Shown here: positions 10,436 through 20,072 of the stretch, one piece after another
Numbering within the stretch: the stretch's first letter is position 1
How the letters are laid out: the number at the start of each line of letters is the position of its first letter
DNA from: a virus
IMG/VR virus record: IMGVR_UViG_3300031787_000100
Span: 1 to 64,000 of that record
Length of the DNA: 64,000 nt
Strand: one strand, 5' to 3'
Notes under the pieces: model-generated
Seen by the model: the letters and a program-made list of their open reading frames with translations, nothing else
Databases searched by the model: none
Told to the model about the DNA's origin: nothing
Position numbers and translations under genes: made by a program

Positions 10436-10455
10436 AAGTTATAACCTTATAACTT
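10436..10455. repeat. 20-bp repeat, copy 1 (palindromic form)
   Basis: AAGTTATAACCTTATAACTT: two 9-bp arms around CC, built of two TTATAA hexamers. It lies at the left end of the gene-free region. Confidence 0.9.
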
Positions 10456-10506
10456 TTACCCCACGGGCTGATGGCACAACTATGACGCAGGGAGAATGGC
10501 ATGCTT

Positions 10507-10917
10507 GTTACAATGTAACAAAACACCCCCGATTTGTTACAAAACCCCGTAACGTTGTTTTTTTGCAAATAGCCCCGCAAAAGTAATACTAAGCGTTTCA
10601 AAAACCAAGAGAGAGAGATAGATATATATATAATATATTATATTGTTACATTGTAACGGTCTTTTTAGGTTATGAGAGTCAAATTCCCAAAACGTATAGT
10701 TCCCTTAATGGTTACCCTGACGCTTATAGCAAACTAAAAGAAAAAGATTTTAGACCTTCATACCCCCAAATACCCTGTTACAGCGTAACCACGACCCATT
10801 TAACCCAAAAGCTATACTATAAAATCGGCTAAGTTGTTGATTCGCAATGACCGACCTATAAACCCCCTCGTAACGACCCCCCTGTAACATTCCCCACCCG
10901 TTTCGTAACACCGTAAC
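10507..10917. repeat. Array of twelve GTTAC/GTAAC pentamers (iteron-like)
   Basis: GTTAC or its complement GTAAC occurs at 10507, 10515, 10536, 10549, 10645, 10653, 10777, 10785, 10870, 10884, 10905 and 10913. Fewer than one is expected by chance in 411 bp. Three pairs form palindromes: TTGTTACA-A-TGTAACAA (10505-10521), GTTACA-T-TGTAAC (10645-10657) and GTTAC-AGC-GTAAC (10777-10789). The rightmost four are direct repeats. Confidence 0.75.
10611..10644. other. AT-rich tract inside the pentamer array
   Basis: A purine-rich GAGAGAGATAGA stretch runs into about 25 bases of only A and T (alternating TATATA/TAATATATTATATT), ending exactly at a GTTACATTGTAAC palindrome. Such tracts next to iterons often serve as unwinding elements, but function is inferred. 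Confidence 0.5.
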
Positions 10918-10929
10918 ACGACCCCCCCA

Positions 10930-10949
10930 AAGTTATAACCTTATAACTT
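10930..10949. repeat. 20-bp repeat, copy 2 (palindromic form), upstream of the 10991 regulator
   Basis: AAGTTATAACCTTATAACTT, about 40 nt before the 10991 start codon. It would overlap the spacer and -35 region of a weak extended -10 (TGCTACACT, 10951-10959), a natural position for autoregulation. Confidence 0.85.
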
Positions 10950-10990
10950 CTGCTACACTACACACCTCCACACCAACCCAAGGACTTACT

Positions 10991-11449
10991 ATGACACAAG
11001 ACCTCTACACCCTCGAATTGAACTTCCCCACCGAAGTTGCCGACCGACTTGCCAACTCACACAAAGACGGCATCGAAGCAGCCACCACACAAGCCATCAA
11101 GTTCTGGCTCCAACTGGGCGACGACACATGGCAAACCATTGCCACACAAGCCAACACCGAAGGCATGTCACGGGCGGAGTTCGTACGCAAAGCCATTGCA
11201 AAACTAATGCACCCCGAAGCCCCCGCCTATGTAAACCTCAAATCAGACCTAACCCTTGCCGAACGACGCAAGGCACGAGATGAGGACATTGCATACCGCG
11301 CACTACGCGGAACACTACGCAGAGACCTTGCAACCCAATACGGCATATCAGAAATCAGGGTGCATCAGATCGTAGCTGCTGCAAAGAAAGAAATTGCCAA
11401 GGAAAAACTCAAGCGGGATTGGACTCCAGACCCATACGAAAACGCTTGA
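10991..11449 (+). CDS. DNA-binding regulator (RHH-like N-terminus, helix-turn-helix C-terminus)
   Basis: A 152-residue protein. The N-terminal half resembles ribbon-helix-helix/CopG-type proteins twice: LNFPTEVADRLANSHKDG (about 9-27) and MSRAEFVRKAIAKLM (about 59-73). The C-terminal half has RDLATQYGISEIRVHQIVAAAKK (about 115-138, shown only as description), a clear helix-turn-helix. It lies alone between the pentamer array and the strong promoter at 11446, with a 20-bp palindrome upstream. It is the best candidate for the protein binding the 20-bp repeats or the pentamers. Whether it represses, activates or initiates replication is unknown. Confidence 0.7.
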   Translation: MTQDLYTLELNFPTEVADRLANSHKDGIEAATTQAIKFWLQLGDDTWQTIATQANTEGMSRAEFVRKAIAKLMHPEAPAYVNLKSDLTLAERRKARDEDIAYRALRGTLRRDLATQYGISEIRVHQIVAAAKKEIAKEKLKRDWTPDPYENA

Positions 11450-11474
11450 CAACATACCTATAATCTGTTATAAT
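11446..11474 (+). promoter_or_regulatory. Perfect extended-consensus sigma70 promoter
   Basis: TTGACA (11446-11451), exactly 17 bp, TATAAT (11469-11474), and a TGT just before it giving the extended TGnTATAAT form. Every key base matches consensus. It overlaps the last codons of the 10991 gene and points into the gene-free region. The predicted start is near 11481. This is the strongest promoter in the window. Confidence 0.92.
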
Positions 11475-11483
11475 TGATTTATC

Positions 11484-11527
11484 AAGTCGAGTAACGCCTC
11501 GGCTTGTTTAGTTCTTTAACAATTTAT
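11484..11527 (+). promoter_or_regulatory. rRNA-type antitermination leader: boxB-like hairpin plus boxA
   Basis: Right at the predicted transcript start is a hairpin, AAGTCGAG (11484-11491) with CTCGGCTT (11498-11505), one G-U pair. Seven nt later comes TCTTTAACAATTTAT (11513-11527), identical over 15 nt to the boxA segment I know from E. coli rrn leaders (TGCTCTTTAACAATTTATCA). The order boxB then boxA is that of rrn operons, not of lambda nut sites. Known function: NusB-S10 load on boxA and protect untranslated transcripts from Rho. Function here is inferred. Confidence 0.75.
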
Positions 11528-11551
11528 ACATAGGTTTTTGTGTAGCTTATA

Positions 11552-11571
11552 AAGTTATAACCTTATAACTT
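11552..11571. repeat. 20-bp repeat, copy 3 (palindromic form)
   Basis: AAGTTATAACCTTATAACTT about 70 nt downstream of the predicted start from the 11446 promoter, 25 nt after boxA. It is the only copy deep in a leader rather than beside a start codon. Confidence 0.88.
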
Positions 11572-12198
11572 TCGCCCAGTCCACATAGGGTACACAAAAA
11601 ATGCAAGCCGTCGCTGTAAATACAGAAGCTCGATAGATTAGTGTCCAGTTCATACAAGAGTTGGTCGTATCCCGATGCCTCAATAGCCACCGCACCTCTT
11701 ATGCGTGTTTCATATCCCATTCACTTGGGTTTCCCTGATTCCGAGAGTTTACTGTAAGTCCCCAAGGGCAGGTAGTGCCATGCCAGTTAGCTATTGTTGA
11801 GTAAAGATACCAAACCGCCAAAGATGTAAGTTACTTTTCTTCCTCGTTTGAATAGACGTTGGGTTAAAGCCCCAGTATGTTGTGGTGTAGTTTCAATAGG
11901 CTAGTGTCAACGAAACGATAGCAACATGCAGCACTAACGCACACTACCTAAATGGGTGCAGTATTTGTATGCCAATCATACAAACTGCTCAGTGGAGTTT
12001 ATGTAGCACCTCGGGTCGCTACCGCTAAGACAACCATGGGAACTGGAACTGACAAGGGTCAGGATATGCCAGAACGACAAACCCTATCGTAGTAAAAAAG
12101 CCAAATCAATCGACGCACTACTCACGGCATTAGCCGTGTCAACAAGTTGTATTCAACTGGGAGGGGATACTGTCCCCTCTTGGGTGTGTACCACACCA

Positions 12199-12218
12199 AA
12201 CCTATAACCTTATAACTT
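12199..12218. repeat. 20-bp repeat, copy 4 (variant)
   Basis: AACCTATAACCTTATAACTT; two changes in the left arm, right half intact. It is immediately followed by TGGGAG, the ribosome site of the 12231 gene. Confidence 0.8.
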
Positions 12219-12230
12219 TGGGAGATCACC

Positions 12231-12440
12231 ATGGGACTTGAGAAAGTAGTACTTAACAAACTAAAAGAGGTTGACCCTCACCTGCAAGCTAGCTTCTACA
12301 ACGGCACATTGTTTATCGACAACGAGCCGAACCTTGACACGCTGACTATCTATCGCATCAACAACGCAGTCAAAAGCGTAGTCACATGCCCCATACAGAT
12401 CAGCAAAAACCGCGACGAGATCGCTATAGATTTTCTTTAA
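12231..12440 (+). CDS. Small protein, unknown
   Basis: A 69-residue protein with a short alpha-beta pattern (VVLNKLKEVDPHLQASFYNG, then LTIYRINNAVKSVVT) and an acidic end. It is the first gene after the structured leader, with GGGAG before ATG. Not recognised. Confidence 0.65.
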   Translation: MGLEKVVLNKLKEVDPHLQASFYNGTLFIDNEPNLDTLTIYRINNAVKSVVTCPIQISKNRDEIAIDFL

Positions 12441-12472
12441 ACCTAACCCTAACTTTAAGACTGGAGAATGAT

Positions 12473-12712
12473 ATGAAAGTGTCCGAACTAATCGCAGAAC
12501 TGGAGTGCTACGACGGTGATGCCGAAGTACACATGGCATACGGTGCTGGTGACTACTGGCGTACAACGCTAGCCCCAAGGGTAAGCCGAACCTTTCAAGG
12601 TACGGTGCAGAAGTCTGAGTATCACCAGACCGACCGCTTGTATGAACGTGACCTCGACGAGCCTGAGGATGAGGAAGACGAACCCATTCGTCAAGTTGTG
12701 GTGATTGAGTAA
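12473..12712 (+). CDS. Small acidic protein, unknown
   Basis: A 79-residue protein. The N-terminus (MKVSELIAELECYDGDAEVHM) matches a short pattern common in phage and bacterial small proteins of unknown role; the C-terminus is very acidic (EDEEDEP). GGAG at 12463-12466 supports the ATG at 12473; a longer in-frame upstream reading has no ribosome site. Confidence 0.65.
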   Translation: MKVSELIAELECYDGDAEVHMAYGAGDYWRTTLAPRVSRTFQGTVQKSEYHQTDRLYERDLDEPEDEEDEPIRQVVVIE

Positions 12713-12730
12713 CTTATAACCTTATAACTT
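12711..12730. repeat. 20-bp repeat, copy 5 (tandem form)
   Basis: AACTTATAACCTTATAACTT, equal to two tandem CTTATAAC units. It overlaps the stop of the preceding gene and is followed at once by TTGGAG. Confidence 0.9.
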
Positions 12731-12742
12731 TTGGAGATGCAA

Positions 12743-12895
12743 ATGATTGAAACCAGTTACACAGAGACAAGACACTACATCTTGCTCAAGAACCTACTCA
12801 TTGCTATTGCCAATGACCGTGATGCCCTGCGCATCATGGCTACCAAAAAAGAAATGGCAGAAGCCGTAGCTGCAATGAAACATTTGTGGGAGTGA
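12743..12895 (+). CDS. Small helical protein, 50 aa, unknown
   Basis: A short frame starting MIETSYTETRHYILLKNLL, with a helical centre and a KKEMAEAVAAMKHLWE end. The repeat-TTGGAG-ATG arrangement is the same as for larger genes in this module, which is the main reason to accept it. It ends 2 nt before the next start codon. Confidence 0.55.
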   Translation: MIETSYTETRHYILLKNLLIAIANDRDALRIMATKKEMAEAVAAMKHLWE

Positions 12896-12897
12896 GT

Positions 12898-13119
12898 ATG
12901 ACCCACTATCACCTGCCGATCTGCACTTGTTGTTACGCAGAACGGATACCCCCTGCCCGAGCTTCGCTCGGTTACAAAACATGCCTGTCATGTGGCGAGA
13001 TACAAGCCAAGACACGCAAGCACACCATCGTGCCTATGCCTAAGTCCAACTACATCGTAGTGACTGACCGCAATTTATTGAAGGGGCTTAACTCATCACA
13101 CAAGGGAGGGGCTATGTAA
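12898..13119 (+). CDS. Small zinc-ribbon-like protein
   Basis: A 73-residue protein with CTCC (about 9-12) and CLSC (about 33-36), i.e. two Cys pairs 20 residues apart as in zinc ribbons. A basic C-terminus follows. ATG at 12898 with GGGAG upstream is preferred over an in-frame GTG at 12886. Probably nucleic-acid or protein binding; not recognised. Confidence 0.6.
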   Translation: MTHYHLPICTCCYAERIPPARASLGYKTCLSCGEIQAKTRKHTIVPMPKSNYIVVTDRNLLKGLNSSHKGGAM

Positions 13120-13367
13120 TGGCAATCGTTCATGGGAAACACCGAGCGCAATACCAGTGGTATCAATACGCATATAAAACATGGGCTTACGAAATACCGA
13201 AACCTGACTTGTATGCCCATGATGTACTGCGTGTTGGGTATTCATCCGAAATAGACGGGTGGAAAATCTTTATAAATCACATCGAGGCGGGACAAGCCTC
13301 AACACTCGAAGAAGCCAAGACATTGGCAATCATGCTGTACAAACTGCACCCCGACTGGGGACACTAA
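13119..13367 (+). CDS. Small protein, unknown
   Basis: An 82-residue protein rich in aromatic residues near the start (YQWYQYAYKTWAYE) with a helical end (TLEEAKTLAIMLYKLHPDWG). The start overlaps the previous stop (TAATG), so it is probably translationally coupled. No domain recognised. Confidence 0.65.
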   Translation: MAIVHGKHRAQYQWYQYAYKTWAYEIPKPDLYAHDVLRVGYSSEIDGWKIFINHIEAGQASTLEEAKTLAIMLYKLHPDWGH

Positions 13368-13388
13368 CTCAACCCTAAACAAACAACA

Positions 13389-13408
13389 AACCTATAACCT
13401 TATAACTT
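13389..13408. repeat. 20-bp repeat, copy 6 (variant)
   Basis: AACCTATAACCTTATAACTT, identical in form to the 12199 copy, followed immediately by TTGGAG for the 13422 gene. Confidence 0.82.
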
Positions 13409-13421
13409 TTGGAGAAACACA

Positions 13422-14180
13422 ATGAGCATGTACTCAAAACTTTCAATGCACTTATCACGTCACATGTATAAGCGTGGCAAGAACAAGGGTAGCGCCCCTG
13501 CCAATGCACATAGGCGTGGCATGGATCACTTCAGAGTGGTCAAGGGTAACGACGACACAATGCGTATCCGCATGTGGAGTACCGACATTATTACCGCTTA
13601 CCCCAATGGCGATGTGAAGATCGACACCAACGGATACTACACACATAACACAACAATCATTCGGCTCAACGAAGCGTTTGGTTTCTTCGAGGGTGTGGGC
13701 GTGGGTATGGGTAAGCGTAGCATCTACAGTTATTCACAACCTGTGCTTCGGGTGGGCGTTAAACTTTATTATTACTATGACGGCATCACACTCAATGCCC
13801 AAGGCGAAGTCATCACGCCACTTCAAGCGTTTGAGCAGAAACGTGTAGATAAAGCAGCGACTAAAGAACTAGCCGTTGACCTAAAAGAGTCAGGGTTTGC
13901 CGATGCGTTCAATCTACTGTATGCAGTAGCTACACCCGATGATATGGAAACCGATAACTACGGGATGTTTGGTGTACGACTCCCCGATGCTTTGTCTGAC
14001 TCTGCCCGAGCCGACACATGGAAAATGATTATCGCTCGCAACAAATTCCAACGTGAGTACGCATATCCGCAGTACCAATACGTAGAGAAATCAAATGCAA
14101 AAGCATGTTGGGCAACCATCATGGCTGCATGCAAAAAGAACATGTACATTGTGTCTCGCTCTGAGACCTTTGTCTTGTAA
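13422..14180 (+). CDS. Uncharacterised protein of the MoxR module
   Basis: A 252-residue protein. The N-terminus is basic (MYKRGKNKGSAPANAHRRG); the middle (about 40-130) is strand-rich and aromatic (TAYPNGDVKIDTNGYYTHNT, then VGVKLYYYYDG); the end is helical. No signal peptide, membrane helix or catalytic motif. It has its own copy of the 20-bp repeat and lies directly before the MoxR ATPase. Function unknown. Confidence 0.7.
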   Translation: MSMYSKLSMHLSRHMYKRGKNKGSAPANAHRRGMDHFRVVKGNDDTMRIRMWSTDIITAYPNGDVKIDTNGYYTHNTTIIRLNEAFGFFEGVGVGMGKRSIYSYSQPVLRVGVKLYYYYDGITLNAQGEVITPLQAFEQKRVDKAATKELAVDLKESGFADAFNLLYAVATPDDMETDNYGMFGVRLPDALSDSARADTWKMIIARNKFQREYAYPQYQYVEKSNAKACWATIMAACKKNMYIVSRSETFVL

Positions 14181-14204
14181 ACGTGGCGTAAGCCAACTTA
14201 AGTA

Positions 14205-14224
14205 AACTTATAACCTTATAACTT
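14205..14224. repeat. 20-bp repeat, copy 7 (tandem form), before the MoxR gene
   Basis: AACTTATAACCTTATAACTT in the 63-bp gap before the 14244 start. Here the ribosome site (CCAAGGAAA) lies further downstream than in most copies, so the repeat is separate from translation initiation. Confidence 0.9.
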
Positions 14225-14243
14225 TCAATCCAAGGAAATCAAA

Positions 14244-15311
14244 ATGCAATTGTCTGTAAACCTCAAACAAGCAGCTACTCTCATTCGCAATGTGGGTACA
14301 ACAAACACAATCCTACTGCGGGGTCAGCCCGGTGTAGGTAAGTCATCTATTCTTGCAACACTAGGCAAGGAACTACCTGACTATCACGTTTGCTACATCG
14401 ACTGTGCAAACTTAGACCTCGGTGACTTGGCTATGCCTGTCATTGACCGAGAGAACATGACCACATCGTATGCACCCAATGTGCGCTTCGGTGTAGGTAA
14501 GAATCAGACTCGACCCGTCATACTTATGCTTGACGAGTTGGGTAAAGCATCACGCCCTGTGATGAACATGTTGTTGCCGACTATCCTTGAGCATCGTGTA
14601 GGTGATGTGCAGTATCGTACTGGGTCAATCATCTTAGCAACAACCAACCTAGATACAGATGGTGTGGGTGACAATATCCCTGCCCATGCCTACAACCGCA
14701 TGACTGTGGTGAACCTAGCCAACCCAACAACTGAGCAGTGGCTCGAGTGGGCATCGGACAACAACATTGCCCCCGAAGTTATGGCATTTGCTAAGCAGTA
14801 TCCGCAAGTGTTCGACTGCTATGTAGACCTTGACCCCAAGGCTAAGAACCCCTACATCTTCAACCCATTGACGGGCAACGTGAAAGCATACTGCTCGCCT
14901 CGTTCACTCGAGAAAGCATCTAACATTATCAAGATGCGTCATGTATTGGGTGATGCCTTGTTGCCTGCATTGGCGGGTACTGTGGGTGAAGCAGCAGCTA
15001 GGGATATGGATGCACTCATTCACTTGGCAGATCAGTTGCCTTTGTTCGAGAACATCGTGAAGGAACCATTCAAGGCTAAGGTTCCAAGCAGTGCGGGTGC
15101 GTTATTCATTCTCGCCTTTATGTTGGCAGGTCGTGTCGATGCTAAGACTATCGACGCAGTGATGGACTACTCAGATCGTATGGCTAACGAATCATTCGAG
15201 GCACATGCACTCTTTATCACATCACTTGCATCCAACAAAGCCAAGGTAGGTATGGCATGCGGTAGCCGTAAGTTCACGACCCAAGCAGCCAAGCTTGGTA
15301 AGTTCTTCTAA
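14244..15311 (+). CDS. MoxR/CobS-type AAA+ ATPase
   Basis: A 355-residue ATPase. Walker A GQPGVGKSS (27-35), Walker B VILMLDELGKAS (about 92-103), sensor 1 ATTNLD (about 131-136), and an arginine-rich NRMTVV stretch follow the MoxR pattern. MoxR ATPases work as hexameric chaperones with von Willebrand A (VWA) partners, remodelling or inserting metals into targets. A metallopeptidase-VWA gene lies 0.9 kb downstream, so the pair is probably functional. A viral precedent is the archaeal virus ATV, which encodes a MoxR and a VWA protein. The target here is unknown. Confidence 0.85.
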   Translation: MQLSVNLKQAATLIRNVGTTNTILLRGQPGVGKSSILATLGKELPDYHVCYIDCANLDLGDLAMPVIDRENMTTSYAPNVRFGVGKNQTRPVILMLDELGKASRPVMNMLLPTILEHRVGDVQYRTGSIILATTNLDTDGVGDNIPAHAYNRMTVVNLANPTTEQWLEWASDNNIAPEVMAFAKQYPQVFDCYVDLDPKAKNPYIFNPLTGNVKAYCSPRSLEKASNIIKMRHVLGDALLPALAGTVGEAAARDMDALIHLADQLPLFENIVKEPFKAKVPSSAGALFILAFMLAGRVDAKTIDAVMDYSDRMANESFEAHALFITSLASNKAKVGMACGSRKFTTQAAKLGKFF

Positions 15312-15330
15312 ACTTATAAGGTTATAACTT
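15311..15330. repeat. 20-bp repeat, copy 8 (GG-centred)
   Basis: AACTTATAAGGTTATAACTT; the centre is GG instead of CC, i.e. the core is in inverted orientation relative to the gene. It overlaps the last base of the MoxR gene and ends 1 nt before the ATG of a 29-aa membrane peptide. Confidence 0.85.
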
Positions 15331-15331
15331 T

Positions 15332-15421
15332 ATGTTTACACCTTGGGAACGCTTCGAGCGTTTTATCTTAGTCCTAGCACTCATTGTGCTAGCCCTTGAC
15401 CTCTACTACTGGAGACCATGA
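15332..15421 (+). CDS. Tiny membrane peptide, 29 aa
   Basis: A short frame, MFTPWERFER then FILVLALIVLALDLYYW, i.e. a positively charged start and one clear membrane helix. The stop overlaps the next start (ATGATG context), suggesting coupling. There is no Shine-Dalgarno because the 20-bp repeat abuts the ATG, which lowers confidence. Confidence 0.45.
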   Translation: MFTPWERFERFILVLALIVLALDLYYWRP

Positions 15422-15594
15422 TGCTTATCGTAGAACGAACATCTAACGGGCAGACCATCGTCGTCATTAAGAAAGATTGGCATCCCAATCGAATCAGCAA
15501 GGCGTACCAACGCCCACTGCCTAACCATGTGCAGTCAAATGATGCATGGAATTTACAAACCGCATTACTAAACAAACTAAGGAAACCATCATGA
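15418..15594 (+). CDS. Small basic protein, 58 aa
   Basis: A 58-residue frame starting MMLIVERTSNGQTIVVIKKD with a basic, Pro-containing C-terminal half. GGAG (15411-15414) precedes the ATG and the end overlaps the next gene by 4 nt (ATGA). Chained overlaps on both sides support it as real. Not recognised. Confidence 0.55.
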   Translation: MMLIVERTSNGQTIVVIKKDWHPNRISKAYQRPLPNHVQSNDAWNLQTALLNKLRKPS

Positions 15595-16190
15595 GAAATA
15601 TGTACGAACTCGCAAGACAACTGCAGTCCCCCGGTGTAGTCACCACGGCATACTTTAACCCAACTCGTTTGACTAAGTCGCTACGCAACCTTGCTCGTAA
15701 GAGCATTGCGTCAGGCAAGCATAGCGGTGGGTGGTCAAGTCAAACAAAGAAAGTGCGCAACCTTATCTTTAAGTTAGCGGGTGAAGCACCTGTGATACAC
15801 GCTAAGCCTGAGCATGGACCGTATGTATCTTTTGTAGCACCACGCCCTATACCTCATAGCGTTCAGAATGAGATGATTGGACTGCTCGAGGCGGACTGCT
15901 CGTTGACTAAGATGAACTTCGAGACAGAGAAGAAGAACTACTACAAGATCACATACGATGAGTTTGTAGAACGAGTTGATGATACTTTTGTTACTAACAT
16001 GAAACGTTTGCAAGAGGTGGGTGGTAGCACGCACTACTCAATCATAATCCGCAACAAACCAATACGAGAGCAGGTAGTTGACTTGTTTCTTACATTGCGA
16101 ACCTCTGATGAGGTGGCATTGGCTGAGCGCATAGCTTCGCTACTAGATGAGAATCGAGAGTTTCTCATCCCATTGGACTACAACTTTTGA
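15591..16190 (+). CDS. Uncharacterised protein between MoxR and VWA genes
   Basis: A 199-residue, soluble, mixed alpha-beta protein. The start MRNMYELARQL at 15591 has AAGGAAA upstream and a 4-nt overlap with the previous gene; a longer upstream reading lacks a ribosome site. Basic N-terminal region (LRNLARKSIASGKHSGGW) then an acidic C-terminal half. Its constant company (MoxR before, VWA after) suggests an adaptor or substrate of that pair, by inference only. Confidence 0.65.
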   Translation: MRNMYELARQLQSPGVVTTAYFNPTRLTKSLRNLARKSIASGKHSGGWSSQTKKVRNLIFKLAGEAPVIHAKPEHGPYVSFVAPRPIPHSVQNEMIGLLEADCSLTKMNFETEKKNYYKITYDEFVERVDDTFVTNMKRLQEVGGSTHYSIIIRNKPIREQVVDLFLTLRTSDEVALAERIASLLDENREFLIPLDYNF

Positions 16191-16191
16191 A

Positions 16192-16211
16192 AACTTATAA
16201 CCTTATAACTT
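16192..16211. repeat. 20-bp repeat, copy 9 (tandem form), before the VWA gene
   Basis: AACTTATAACCTTATAACTT directly joined to TTGGAGAAATCAA and the 16225 start codon. Confidence 0.9.
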
Positions 16212-16224
16212 TTGGAGAAATCAA

Positions 16225-17397
16225 ATGAACGTATCAGATCGAATCAAGAAAGCGCACATCGCTATCATGCAACACAAAAAGTTCTGTGTGTATAGCGGTA
16301 TCCTTGCGTGTGGCAAGGTGCATGTCAACAACGACGTACCTACCGCAGCTACTAACGGTTGGGATGTTATCTACAACCCTGCCTTCATCGAGCAACACAT
16401 GAAGACCGACCCCGAGTTGCGCTTCCTCATCTTGCATGAGGGTCAGCACAAAGCGTATCGTCACTTGCAAGTATGGACTGCATTGCACGACGAGGATGCT
16501 CAGTTGGCTAACATCGCAGCAGATCACTTCGTTAACTTATCCTTAGTGGATATGGATGACGGTGAGGGGTTCATCAAGATGCCTGAGTTAGGTGTGCAAC
16601 CTGATGCCAAGTATCGTGGGTGGTCAGTCAAGCAAATCTTCGAAGACCTCAAGCAAGAGGAAGAAGAAGGCGGGGGTGGTGGCGGTGGCGAAGGTGGCAA
16701 TGGGTTCGATGAGCATGACTGGGCTAATGCAACAAGCGGTGACCCTGCTAAGGATGCCGAGCGTGGCAATGAGATACAACGAGCCATTCGTCAAGGCGAG
16801 ATCGTGCGTCGCAAGATGCAAGGCAAGGGTGCAGGCGATGCAGATGGTGCGTTCGGTGAGTTGTTGCAACCCAAGATCGACTGGAAGAAAGTCTTGCGTG
16901 ACTTCATCACCGAGACATGTGCGGGTCGTGACGAGTCCTCATGGCGTAAACCTAATCGTAGATTTTTGAGCTACGACGTTTACATGCCCTCTATGGTGGG
17001 GACTACTATGACAGAGCTTGTCATCGGGTTCGACACGTCGGGTTCATGTTTCGGTGGCGATGAAATGACTGCGTTTGTTTCCAACATCAAGACCATCATT
17101 GAAGAGGTCAAGCCAACCAAGACACACGTCATCTATTGGGACACTCAAGTAGCAGGGCATCAAACATTCGAGGATGGTCAGTTTGCCGTAGCCGACATGA
17201 AACCCAAGGGCGGTGGTGGTACAGATGGTTCTGTGTTGTTTGAATACTTGCGTGAACACCGTATCAACCCACAAGCTATTGTGCAGTTTACCGACGGCTA
17301 CGTAGGTGATTGGGGTAACACCAATGTGCCTACCTTGTGGGCTATCACAACCGATGTGGTTGCACCATTCGGTACGACGATTCGTGTCGAAGTTTAA
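16225..17397 (+). CDS. Metallopeptidase-like/VWA protein, MoxR partner
   Basis: A 390-residue protein. The N-terminal domain (1-130) has ILHEGQHKAYRH with HEGQH at 71-75, an HExxH zinc motif as in DUF2201-type putative metallopeptidases. A Glu-then-Gly linker (about 146-162) leads to a helical middle and a VWA-like domain with a MIDAS set: DTSGS (about 269-273), GGGTDGS (about 330-337) and FTDGY (about 352-356). Proteins of this type pair with MoxR ATPases in bacteria. The role is unknown in phages; protein remodelling or metal-dependent cleavage is an inference. Confidence 0.8.
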   Translation: MNVSDRIKKAHIAIMQHKKFCVYSGILACGKVHVNNDVPTAATNGWDVIYNPAFIEQHMKTDPELRFLILHEGQHKAYRHLQVWTALHDEDAQLANIAADHFVNLSLVDMDDGEGFIKMPELGVQPDAKYRGWSVKQIFEDLKQEEEEGGGGGGGEGGNGFDEHDWANATSGDPAKDAERGNEIQRAIRQGEIVRRKMQGKGAGDADGAFGELLQPKIDWKKVLRDFITETCAGRDESSWRKPNRRFLSYDVYMPSMVGTTMTELVIGFDTSGSCFGGDEMTAFVSNIKTIIEEVKPTKTHVIYWDTQVAGHQTFEDGQFAVADMKPKGGGGTDGSVLFEYLREHRINPQAIVQFTDGYVGDWGNTNVPTLWAITTDVVAPFGTTIRVEV

Positions 17398-17417
17398 AAC
17401 TTATAACCTTATAACTT
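17398..17417. repeat. 20-bp repeat, copy 10 (tandem form)
   Basis: AACTTATAACCTTATAACTT, starting 1 nt after the VWA stop codon and followed at once by TTGGAG for the 17430 gene. Confidence 0.9.
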
Positions 17418-17429
17418 TTGGAGAAAACC

Positions 17430-17795
17430 ATGGGATATAGATCAGATGTGCAGGCACTTATTTACCCTGCGAACGGTGACACTAACTTGTTGGAGTACGA
17501 CAAGCTCAAAACGCTAATGAACACCACGTTTAAGGATATGTTGGATACATGGGGCGATTACTTTGATTGGAATGACCATCATCGTGTACTCCAGTTTACC
17601 GCTAACTCTATTAAATGGTACGACAGCTACCCCGATGTGGCTAGGTTTACTAAGTTTTTGGAGGAGGTGCGCGACCTTGAGTACGAGTATGAGTTCATTC
17701 GTATTGGCGAGGATGACAACGATGTTGAGTCCGATAGCACAGGCGATGCCGAGAACTTTATGTACGTAGAACGAACCATACAGGTGAATTTATGA
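17430..17795 (+). CDS. Acidic protein, unknown
   Basis: A 121-residue acidic protein starting MGYRSDVQALIYPANG. The MGYRSDV opening is shared by unknown proteins of other phages and plasmids, as far as I recall. Residues 95-115 are almost all acidic. ATG at 17430 follows GGAGAAAACC. Soluble; no catalytic motif. Confidence 0.65.
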   Translation: MGYRSDVQALIYPANGDTNLLEYDKLKTLMNTTFKDMLDTWGDYFDWNDHHRVLQFTANSIKWYDSYPDVARFTKFLEEVRDLEYEYEFIRIGEDDNDVESDSTGDAENFMYVERTIQVNL

Positions 17796-18070
17796 AATTC
17801 AAGTTAACTATCAACGGGCATCACGTATTGGTGGATGCAGGGCAACTCCAAATCCTTACAGATACTCTGTCGTTTGCCGAACACCTAACCGAAACTCACG
17901 TTGGGCACAACATGGGGTCACAAGGGTATCAGAACGCATACGTACCGGCTATCAAGCCAGTCGTAACACACGAGCTATTCACTGTAGCACCAGTGAACCA
18001 AGACTACATCGACACAATCAAACTGACGATGAAGCTAAATGACACATCAACCATGCAAGTAACAACCTAA
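17792..18070 (+). CDS. Small protein, unknown
   Basis: A 92-residue protein (begins MKFKLTINGHHVLVDAGQLQ) with a strand-helix start and a Tyr/Pro-rich centre. It overlaps the previous gene by 4 nt (ATGA) and ends just before the next repeat. Not recognised. Confidence 0.65.
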   Translation: MKFKLTINGHHVLVDAGQLQILTDTLSFAEHLTETHVGHNMGSQGYQNAYVPAIKPVVTHELFTVAPVNQDYIDTIKLTMKLNDTSTMQVTT

Positions 18071-18090
18071 AACTTATAACCTTATAACTT
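18071..18090. repeat. 20-bp repeat, copy 11 (tandem form)
   Basis: AACTTATAACCTTATAACTT directly after the previous stop codon and directly before TGGAGAAACC of the 18101 gene. Confidence 0.9.
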
Positions 18091-18100
18091 TGGAGAAACC

Positions 18101-19027
18101 ATGAACTACTACACAATCGAAACAGAAAAGCCTATCGCAGGCGTCGCACGTTCCGCCATGATGGTGGACTTAAACATCGCAGTCTACTCGGGTCGCAAGC
18201 AAGACAAGAGTACGCAAGCCGAGGTCACCAATGCCAAGGGGTCAGGCTCCAAGAAAGCAGCGTCGGTGTACAAGAACTTGTTTGCTGAGTGCAAAGAGTT
18301 GGAAGCTATCACCAAGTTCCAAGCCCGTGCCCGAGCCGAACACTATCGCTTGACGCTTCCTTGGAATGACCAAGGTGCAAGACTGTTGCCCACTGCAGCC
18401 CTGCTTGAGTATCAGAAGACTATGGGTAGGCATAACACAGAGTTCAATCGCTTGGTCGATGCGTTCTTGGACAAGTACGAGACACTCGTAGCAGGGGCAG
18501 CGTTCCAACTCGGCACATTGTTTGATCGCAACGAGTACCCAAGCAGGGGCAAGGTGGCTCAGCGTTTTCGTATGGAGGCATCGTTCACTCCCTTGCCTAC
18601 TGGCGGTGACTTCCGACTTGATGTGGAGAGCGAGGTACAACGCAACCTGATCGCCCAATACGAAGAGAAGCTCGATGCTAAGTTGAAGGCAGCGAACCAA
18701 GACTCATGGACTCGTTTGTATAACGCTATCAGTAAGTTGAGTGATCGCTTGACTGTGGATGAGGATGGCAAGAAGCGTACGTTCCACGACACAACGGTGA
18801 CCAATGCCGTTGACTTGTGTGAGTTGTTGCAGGTCATGAACATTACCAACGACCCTGCGTTGACGAAAGCTTCACGTAAGCTTGAGGAAGTATTATCTGG
18901 CATAACACCTAAGGAATTGCGGGAAGAAGATAGCACTCGTGCTTTAACCAAGATCAAGGTGGATGAAATCCTTGGTGCATTTGATTGGGGGATAAATGAT
19001 GGGGAAAGTGAAGGCGATGGTAACTGA
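18101..19027 (+). CDS. DUF3150-like protein of the MoxR/VWA module
   Basis: A 308-residue, mostly helical protein. It begins with strands then a GRKQDKSTQAEV segment, followed by long helices (about 50-130), a FRLDVESEVQRN segment, a second helical block and an acidic tail (DWGINDGESEGDG). Size, helical build and position near CobS/MoxR and CobT/VWA-type genes match DUF3150 proteins known from phages and conjugative elements. The match is from memory, not from a search. Role unknown; a third component of the ATPase module is the inference. Confidence 0.55.
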   Translation: MNYYTIETEKPIAGVARSAMMVDLNIAVYSGRKQDKSTQAEVTNAKGSGSKKAASVYKNLFAECKELEAITKFQARARAEHYRLTLPWNDQGARLLPTAALLEYQKTMGRHNTEFNRLVDAFLDKYETLVAGAAFQLGTLFDRNEYPSRGKVAQRFRMEASFTPLPTGGDFRLDVESEVQRNLIAQYEEKLDAKLKAANQDSWTRLYNAISKLSDRLTVDEDGKKRTFHDTTVTNAVDLCELLQVMNITNDPALTKASRKLEEVLSGITPKELREEDSTRALTKIKVDEILGAFDWGINDGESEGDGN

Positions 19028-19358
19028 GATTATGGAAGTAGCAGACAGGCATGGGCGAGCTAAGTCAGACGCCCTTCGAATGCTAGAACATAAACTTGGA
19101 TACCACAAAGACAATCCTATGTACGAATGTAGATACGAAGAACGTGGGCTTGACTACACGCTAAAGAAATGGCGTGACGGACACGAGGAAGCATCTCGTG
19201 GACTGGTAACAGACCTACCTGATTGGCTAGAGAGAATCAGGGATGTGGCGACGGTGGGTGGGCATCTTAAGAAAGTGAACGTGCCTCCCCCTGACAACAT
19301 CGTATGGTTCACTATCGACGACGATGGAAATTTAATTAACTTTATGGAACTTACATGA
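18996..19358 (+). CDS. Uncharacterised protein
   Basis: A 120-residue protein with a charged helical N-terminus (MEVADRHGRAKSDALRMLEHKLG) and an acidic, strand-like end (NIVWFTIDDDGNLINFMEL). The start is uncertain: 18996 overlaps the previous gene by 32 nt; ATG at 19017 with AAGG upstream is also plausible. Not recognised. Confidence 0.6.
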   Translation: MMGKVKAMVTEIMEVADRHGRAKSDALRMLEHKLGYHKDNPMYECRYEERGLDYTLKKWRDGHEEASRGLVTDLPDWLERIRDVATVGGHLKKVNVPPPDNIVWFTIDDDGNLINFMELT

Positions 19359-19528
19359 ACTATGACAACTTGACCGATGAGGAACTAATCCGTTTTGCCG
19401 ATGGGCATACGGGTTTAATCAAAGTCTTATCTGAAAGGTTGGAGATGCGGTTGCGTGACATGGAGGATTTATCACGCACCATGCCTGACCCCAAACAACT
19501 TAACCTATTCGAGGATGACGATGCCTGA
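19355..19528 (+). CDS. Small acidic protein, 57 aa
   Basis: A short frame starting MNYDNLTDEELIRFADGHTG with a helical centre (LIKVLSERLEMRLRDMEDL) and a NLFEDDDA end. It overlaps both neighbours by 4 and 8 nt, the close packing typical of this operon. Not recognised. Confidence 0.55.
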   Translation: MNYDNLTDEELIRFADGHTGLIKVLSERLEMRLRDMEDLSRTMPDPKQLNLFEDDDA

Positions 19529-20072
19529 CATACAAACAGAAATGCAAAAGATATTGCAAGCTTGGGAACAACCCGAAACAACTGAAACAACTAAGGAAAC
19601 AACAGTGTTTAAACCTACAAACAACGTAACAAAAGAAACCTTTAACTTTATTCGAGACAACTCCGGTTGCGCTCGAAACGATGCAATCCGAATCCTTGTA
19701 GCGCAAGGGCATAAGAAATCATCTGTGTCATCTTTGCTTGGACAGATGCTACGCCAAGGGCATATCTACAAGGATAGCGACGGCTTGCTACGCCCCAATG
19801 GTAAAGAGTACACACCCATCAAATCTTCTAAGACGCTTGCTAAGCGAGAAGCTAAGGTGAAGAAACCAAAAAGTTATAAGGTTATAACTTCTAAGCCAAG
19901 TCAAGAGGCATTGGGTTTAGCTGCATTGGTGAACGAGCCAATAGCTAAAGCGTTCAATCACCAACCTGACATTCGTACAAACATCGACATTATCATGGAT
20001 ACGATTAGCCTCAATGATGCCCACGAGTTGTATCGTCGCTTGCACTTGTACTTCGGTGGCTTGGGTAAATGA
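19521..20072 (+). CDS. Winged-helix-like protein carrying a repeat in its coding sequence
   Basis: A 183-residue protein. A Thr/Glu-rich start (about 1-40) is followed by a winged-helix-like region (FNFIRDNSGCARNDAIRILV, SVSSLLGQMLRQGHIYKD, about 42-95), then a basic linker and a C-terminal helical tail. A 20-bp repeat (19871-19890) lies inside the gene and encodes part of KSYKVITSK. GAGG before ATG 19521 decides the start. A DNA-binding role fits, and the internal repeat raises the possibility of self-binding. Confidence 0.6.
   Translation: MPDIQTEMQKILQAWEQPETTETTKETTVFKPTNNVTKETFNFIRDNSGCARNDAIRILVAQGHKKSSVSSLLGQMLRQGHIYKDSDGLLRPNGKEYTPIKSSKTLAKREAKVKKPKSYKVITSKPSQEALGLAALVNEPIAKAFNHQPDIRTNIDIIMDTISLNDAHELYRRLHLYFGGLGK
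19871..19890. repeat. 20-bp repeat, copy 12 (palindromic form), within a coding sequence
   Basis: AAGTTATAAGGTTATAACTT, perfect 9-bp arms around GG. It is the only copy inside a gene and the rightmost in the window. Confidence 0.9.

Follow-up and report, generated by a model that had tools for sequence, protein, structure and literature searches.

A stretch of viral DNA (IMG/VR record IMGVR_UViG_3300031787_000100, positions 1–64,000; hereafter the window) from a 66.2 kb freshwater virus encodes a ternary module, consisting of a MoxR-type AAA+ ATPase, a protein joining a zincin-like metallopeptidase domain to a VWA domain (zincin-VWA), and a protein treated as a divergent member of the DUF3150 family. 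The composition of the module is well supported. The MoxR–zincin-VWA pair was already known, and the obligatory third member looks to be the new part. We tentatively favor the interpretation that the three proteins may act as a ternary AAA+ machine, which is made early and remodels, or perhaps cleaves, a protein complex with which the mobile element replicates or recombines its DNA.

Composition and location of the module

Domain and PHROG annotation of the window placed the virion genes (terminase, portal, head, and tail) on the minus strand. The module shares the plus strand with genes for DNA polymerase A, exonuclease, helicase, and primase/helicase. Comparison of the terminase gave Pelagibacter HTVC027P/HTVC023P and phage DSL-LC04 as the nearest named phages (43–45%), followed at 37% by Pag-Yong1, MinM2, and Pra-JY27, which are Planktothrix/Synechococcus phages. 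The initial annotation of the window had described a MoxR ATPase, a protein with both HEGQH and a full metal ion-dependent adhesion site (MIDAS), and a DUF3150-like protein interleaved with small genes. Open reading frame (ORF) calling and sequence reading located every one of these genes where it had been placed, and all three named products are encoded, the DUF3150 member being divergent. The three genes and their motifs are as follows.

14244..15311, plus strand: MoxR-type AAA+ ATPase, 355 amino acids, N4 gp24-like (phrog_1297, Pfam)
14322-14345, plus strand: Walker A motif GQPGVGKS (sequence reading)
14532-14537, plus strand: Walker B motif DE (sequence reading)
16225..17397, plus strand: DUF2201 zincin-like metallopeptidase, glycine-rich linker, and C-terminal VWA domain, N4 gp25-like (Pfam, PHROG)
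16435-16449, plus strand: HEGQH in the N-terminal zincin-like domain (sequence reading)
17032-17046, plus strand: MIDAS motif DTSGS (VWA domain)
17221-17223, plus strand: MIDAS residue T333 (VWA domain)
17293-17295, plus strand: MIDAS residue D357 (VWA domain)
18101..19027, plus strand: DUF3150-family third component, 308 amino acids, mixed alpha/beta with long helices (Pfam, profiles, predicted fold)

Co-conservation of the three genes

An IMG/VR scan yielded 79 loci with a zincin-VWA protein (35–100% identity), in which the partners were sought by iterated profiles. MoxR was found in 69 and DUF3150 in 75 of these loci, and all 14 absences of either gene coincided with a contig ending within ~0.8 kb on the expected side. 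The initial annotation had proposed a co-occurrence analysis of the three families; co-conservation holds in 65 of the 65 loci whose contigs are long enough to be informative, with no loss among the relatives. The gene order was MoxR-VWA-DUF3150 in 60 of these loci and DUF3150-MoxR-VWA in five, and it was MoxR-DUF3150-VWA in Planktothrix phage Pag-Yong1. All three genes are under purifying selection, the median ratio of nonsynonymous to synonymous substitution rates (dN/dS) between the window and its relatives being 0.10 for MoxR, 0.11 for zincin-VWA, and 0.10 for DUF3150. The view that the three genes are one functional module, placed early near the replication genes, is supported. Among bacterial genomes, close copies were found on one contig only, in an Armatimonadetes metagenome-assembled genome, which is likely a phage contig; canonical DUF3150 was essentially absent from the Armatimonadota genomes searched.

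Conservation of the catalytic residues

The MoxR protein matched phrog_1297 ("ATPase"; E 1.2e-49) and scored above the cut-off for both Pfam AAA and AAA_5. By sequence, the best PDB relative of its profile was the AAA+ part of midasin (E 3e-45). In 31 aligned MoxR proteins, G32, K33, D97, N135, R152, and R220 were invariant and E98 was nearly always kept. The zincin-VWA protein matched Pfam DUF2201_N ("putative metallopeptidase"; E 1.3e-28, 100.9 bits against a cut-off of 23.2), DUF2201 ("VWA-like"; E 2.5e-16, 60.4 bits against 26.4), and phrog_1314 (E 5.1e-85). Its zincin region matched the small zincin MJ1213 of the minigluzincin type (E 2e-4), and its VWA part matched VWA folds, the human midasin MIDAS among them. 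Among 37 diverse aligned zincin-VWA proteins (the window clade, N4, LUZ7, RaK2, phage G, rV5-type phages, pSYSA, and Burkholderia plasmids), H71-E72-x-x-H75, D100, N104, D270/S272/S274, T333, and D357 were invariant, and HExxH was kept in all 91 full-length homologues collected. The catalytic residues of both proteins are conserved across viral, phage, and plasmid members at about 20–97% identity, and no substitution in them was seen down to ~22% identity. The initial annotation had regarded the catalytic motifs as active-looking, and this is supported by the residue conservation; the degeneration that it had named as a counterargument was not seen, with the Walker A residues intact in all 31 MoxR proteins and HEGQH intact in all homologues aligned.

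The PHROG label "HNH endonuclease" for phrog_1314 was rejected, as Pfam finds no HNH domain. The same label is mass-annotated on N4 gp25-like metallopeptidase-VWA proteins in PHROG 1314 and RefSeq phages, where it is likewise unsupported by domain search.

Assignment of the third component to DUF3150

The 18101–19027 product itself matched Pfam DUF3150 (PF11348) weakly (E 0.01; 15.6 bits, below the cut-off of 24.9). PF11348 was found at E≤0.01 in 18 of the 26 family members, with a best value of 4.6e-7, and one relative passed the curated cut-off (25.2 against 24.9 bits). When the phage family was aligned by hhalign with the canonical DUF3150 of MOBH plasmids, the N-terminal half matched at 92% probability (E 5.7e-7). 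The predicted fold was confident (pLDDT 82, pTM 0.71) and matched viral proteins, the first of which is a "DUF3150 domain-containing protein" (E 6e-19, template modeling score 0.74). Because of the relatives' PF11348 matches, the profile–profile alignment, and the fold match, the protein is treated as a putative divergent DUF3150 member. A PDB fold search with the predicted model returned no match at E≤0.001, PADLOC and NCBIfam searches returned nothing informative, and our literature search found no paper naming this family.

Occurrence in other phages

A tblastn search (E≤1e-5) detected the zincin-VWA protein in 550 of 50,697 phage records, and MoxR was detected in 458 phage records. A MoxR gene lies nearby in the window and in nearly all of the phage and plasmid zincin-VWA examples examined. 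In the phages examined in detail (Schitoviridae, Vequintavirinae, Alcyoneusvirus, Arenbergviridae, phage G, and unclassified phages), the ATPase gene was at most ~9 kb from the VWA gene and mostly adjacent to it; in SonariX, the ATPase was seen solely as an unlabelled gene of matching size. Genes for DNA polymerase, helicase, primase, exonuclease, thymidylate synthase, or dCTP/dCMP deaminase were near the pair in N4, LUZ7, pYD6-A, pVco-5, RHEph16, SonariX, SCTP-2, V17, and the window. The N4 gp24/gp25 pair (Schitoviridae; PHROG 1297 and 1314) and the jumbo-phage pair share the MoxR, the DUF2201 zincin-VWA, and the catalytic motifs with the window, but no DUF3150 homologue is present in their loci or genomes.

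Occurrence on plasmids

The phage-type triad forms a compact MoxR-DUF3150-VWA operon on Burkholderia vietnamiensis pBVIE02 and on Cupriavidus taiwanensis and Rhodovastum plasmids, and it occurs in a looser arrangement in Simplicispira. The Burkholderiales operons (pBVIE02 and C. taiwanensis) contain the same three subfamilies as the window phage but differ in their neighbors, which are PRTRC or conjugation genes. Two Burkholderiales plasmids (L093 and L096) have a PRTRC (ParB-related, ThiF-related) cassette, annotated as such in C. taiwanensis, and the operon of the triad follows it a few kb downstream.

Canonical DUF3150 was found on 1,103 PLSDB plasmids, of which 970 are conjugative. All five distinct MOBH plasmids examined (pRA1, pLM6, pPae-WC20, pT267A, and pRHBSTW-00398_2) encode an AAA/MoxR protein, DUF3150, and a CobT-like protein in which both HExxH and VWA are present. 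IncA pRA1 and its relatives have the same three-part set as the window, arranged as MoxR, DUF3150, zincin-VWA and with HExxH and MIDAS present, but from different subfamilies: the MoxR is of the NorQ type, and the zincin-VWA protein is of the CobT type and ~590 amino acids long. RecT/Bet and lambda-exonuclease genes were near the triad on four of the five plasmids, and helicase, HU, and 3'-5' exonuclease genes on the fifth. The profile–profile comparison between the phage and MOBH plasmid MoxR proteins gave 97%.

Two further replicons have the pair. On the toxin-antitoxin-rich pSYSA of Synechocystis PCC 6803 (L094, 26352-28630), MoxR and a DUF2201 zincin-VWA protein occur without DUF3150. The Acinetobacter baumannii "plasmid" pRBH2-3 (L097) has the MoxR/VWA pair and an N4-like-looking DNA-directed RNA polymerase gene, and it is probably a phage-plasmid or a phage genome.

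Accompanying genes and a shared palindrome

Small genes around the triad recur in the 79 viral loci, and most genes of the module, the triad included, are preceded by a palindrome. The small genes are listed below with the palindrome copies.

13391..13406, plus strand: palindrome copy before 13422
13422..14180, plus strand: 252-amino-acid protein, directly 5' of moxR, in 60 of 79 loci (profile scan)
14207..14222, plus strand: palindrome copy, exact core, before moxR
15313..15328, strand not assigned: palindrome copy, GG center, before 15332
15332..15421, plus strand: possible 29-amino-acid hydrophobic peptide MFTPWERFERFILVLALIVLALDLYYWRP (sequence reading)
15418..15594, plus strand: 58-amino-acid protein, in 58 of 79 loci (profile scan)
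15591..16190, plus strand: 199-amino-acid protein, in 41 of 79 loci, dispensable (profile scan)
16194..16209, plus strand: palindrome copy, exact core, before the zincin-VWA gene
17400..17415, plus strand: palindrome copy, exact core, before 17430
17430..17795, plus strand: 121-amino-acid protein, in 55 of 79 loci (profile scan)
17792..18070, plus strand: 92-amino-acid protein upstream of the DUF3150 gene, in 62 of 79 loci (profile scan)
18073..18088, plus strand: palindrome copy, exact core, before the DUF3150 gene
18996..19358, plus strand: 120-amino-acid protein after the DUF3150 gene, in 61 of 79 loci (profile scan)
19355..19528, plus strand: 57-amino-acid protein, in 59 of 79 loci (profile scan)

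The 60 loci with the 13422 protein include the clade at 42–46% identity (L063, L064, L067, and L068). The core CTTATAACCTTATAAC, allowing up to two mismatches, has ~13 copies compared with 0.05 expected per strand, and all copies lie within 10438-19888 (10.4–19.9 kb) of the window. The palindrome reads TTATAA-CC-TTATAA and is mostly located between a stop codon and the following ribosome-binding site. The module has an early co-regulation layout. The initial annotation had all the genes under copies of the same repeat, which was a slight overstatement: copies are directly 5' of 13422, 14244, 15332, 16225, 17430, and 18101, but no copy is directly 5' of 15418, 15591, or 17792.

Among 57 related loci having at least four copies, 18 different palindromes were found, including TTCTAA-CC-TTAGAA, TCTTAA-CC-TTAAGA, TTTTAA-GG-TTAAAA, TCTAATATTAGA, and CTAACAATGTTAG; in shuffled loci, two copies were never reached. 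All copies within one phage share one type, and both arms change together. The copy at 19873-19888 lies inside a coding region for a winged helix–turn–helix (wHTH) protein, of which homologous genes are present in three related loci (L003, L010, and L011), and the residues encoded there track the palindrome type (SYKVIT to TSKVRT). At this copy, the protein sequence seems to give way to selection for the DNA site. As the copies within a phage share one type, both arms change together, and the encoded protein changes with the palindrome, the palindromes fit putative operator sites for a DNA-binding protein with fast-diverging specificity, and the set looks like a fast-diversifying operator or stoperator regulon.

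Other readings of the palindromes were rejected. An RNA hairpin is unlikely, since fold z-scores ranged from -1.5 to +1.2 and the palindrome arms of relatives have a loop of zero length; no Rfam family matched. A Sigma70 promoter was discarded, as arms such as TTCTAA-CC-TTAGAA lose TATAAT-like words. Two candidates for the binding protein, the 10991-11449 product (Mor-like helix–turn–helix, HTH) and a wHTH protein whose gene ends at 20072, are near-identical in L003 and L010/L011, the palindromes of which differ, and therefore neither sets the specificity. The 10991-11449 product is a small protein with a HicB-like/ribbon–helix–helix-like N-terminus and a Mor-like C-terminal HTH; its homologues comprise about 40 ORFs in the related loci, being split into two ORFs in some.

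Relation to known systems

An earlier listing gives N4 gp24 and gp25 as an AAA ATPase and a vWFA protein with the function "unknown" (PMC2784036). In phage 0305phi8-36, a "MoxR-type metalloprotein chaperonin" was noted, of which two subunits are encoded (PMC2147016), and Iyer and colleagues proposed virion assembly with processing for the jumbo-phage MoxR/metallopeptidase-vWA pair (PMC7824862). The statement in the initial annotation that the role in bacterial phages is undescribed therefore holds for an experimental role, but the pair itself had been noted in these three papers. No description of a DUF3150-containing ternary version was found in our literature search.

NorQ/NorD, RavA/ViaA, and CobS/CobT also combine a MoxR ring with a VWA partner; unlike the module, they are two-part metal-insertion or respiratory chaperones without DUF3150. 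In NorQD, the VWA finger of NorD enters the NorQ AAA+ pore, and the ring twists or remodels the linker (PMC13036017). Conflict systems in which VMAP or iSTAND joins MoxR and vWA as a third part have been described (PMC7159879, PMC12839542), and they follow the same three-part logic, namely MoxR, a vWA protein often with a peptidase effector, and a third protein. Their third part is VMAP or an inactive STAND, whereas in the window it is DUF3150 and the effectors are not diversified. We rejected an assignment of the module to these systems, as the recurrent Pfam match of its third component is DUF3150 and no PADLOC model applied.

Proposed function and alternatives

From its composition and neighborhoods, we infer that the three proteins form a physical complex with proteolytic or remodeling activity and a target in DNA metabolism. 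The MoxR hexamer would be the motor, and the zincin-VWA protein would dock on the ring via its VWA/MIDAS domain, carrying a metalloprotease-like head. DUF3150 would be the obligatory third subunit in the window lineage, probably the part for target recognition or regulation. The ATP-driven ring would pull or twist the VWA linker, and one candidate for the remodeled target is a complex of an annealing protein or the replisome. The replication and nucleotide genes beside the phage pair, and the annealing protein and exonuclease beside the MOBH triad, suggest that the machine acts early and on complexes that process DNA. A more specific version, which we regard as possible but doubtful, is that DUF3150 defines a distinct MoxR-zincin-VWA class of phages and conjugative plasmids as its third subunit, being an adaptor that recruits an ATP-driven protease to the nucleoprotein complexes in which the mobile element recombines or replicates.

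Several observations weigh against the favored interpretation. The linkage to DNA genes is neighborhood evidence, and genes of this kind are common in the early regions of phages in general; in the rV5 group, no clear link of the pair to DNA genes was seen, and in RaK2, virion genes are beside the pair. Profile searches of loci or whole records did not find DUF3150 in N4, rV5-type phages, phage G, PA5oct-like phages, RaK2, SCTP-2, LUZ7, and Slicko01, and none of the nine MoxR/VWA phages searched whole had it. With N4-type, rV5-type, and jumbo phages lacking it, DUF3150 cannot be required everywhere for what the pair does at its core. Neither MoxR nor the VWA protein was found at the sensitivity used in HTVC027P and DSL-LC04, the nearest cultured relatives by terminase, and their replication genes are present, so that the module is not essential for that replication type as such.

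The initial annotation suggested that the module may remodel a host complex. An early machine would then dismantle or inactivate a complex of the host, such as RNA polymerase, RecBCD, or a defense complex, as its early region, its own regulon with host-takeover-like small genes, and the virion genes on the opposite strand would suggest; on plasmids, the machine would likewise serve the entering element. We found no direct evidence for this, and the plasmid and phage neighborhoods point more to the element's own replication or recombination complexes. No host factor was identified and no PADLOC defense model of note matched. The pair is present in phages of Bacillus, Pseudomonas, Escherichia, Vibrio, Rhizobium, and cyanobacteria, and with such widely differing hosts, a conserved target fits better than a variable host target. 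We consider a host target rather unlikely.

It is improbable that the module serves as a virion-assembly chaperone with peptidolytic processing, as proposed by Iyer and colleagues. Such a role would be analogous to the tail protein system of the archaeal virus ATV, where p618, a MoxR protein, interacts with the VWA protein p892 and both are linked to the development of the tail (PMC4124505), and it would agree with the position of the RaK2 pair. However, the window and N4-type genes are in the early or replication region, apart from the virion genes, and the triad is widespread on plasmids, which make no virions.

There is also little probability in a metal-insertion chaperone of the NorQ/NorD or CobS/CobT kind, in which the HExxH head would bind or deliver a metal and the ring would drive its insertion into a metalloenzyme of the phage or the host. 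The MoxR-VWA pairs of known biochemistry do insert metals (PMC13036017, PMC9976466), and the plasmid versions match the NorQ C-terminal and CobT families. Nevertheless, no client metalloenzyme or chelatase was among the annotated neighbors in the window, phage, and plasmid loci, and HExxH with an acidic residue is a classical protease site, in line with the MJ1213 match. Finally, ImmA-type zincins remove ImmR-type repressors, and by analogy the zincin might remove a DNA-binding protein occupying the palindromes before the early genes; the module does sit within the palindrome-preceded gene set, but this is very improbable, with no repressor identified, neither candidate DNA-binding protein tracking the palindrome type, and palindromes not shown for the plasmid and N4-type homologues.

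Implications

Hundreds of sequenced phages, coliphage N4 included, encode the MoxR/VWA pair. N4 gp25-like proteins are wrongly labelled "HNH endonuclease". The published virion-assembly proposal is weakened, because plasmids carry the same triad. Seen as one ternary module, the phage and plasmid cassettes become a testable unit, for which N4 in E. coli K-12 is an easy laboratory model. If the role that we doubtfully assign to DUF3150 is true, the DUF3150-adaptor machine would be an extrachromosomal counterpart of ClpX/MuA-type remodeling.

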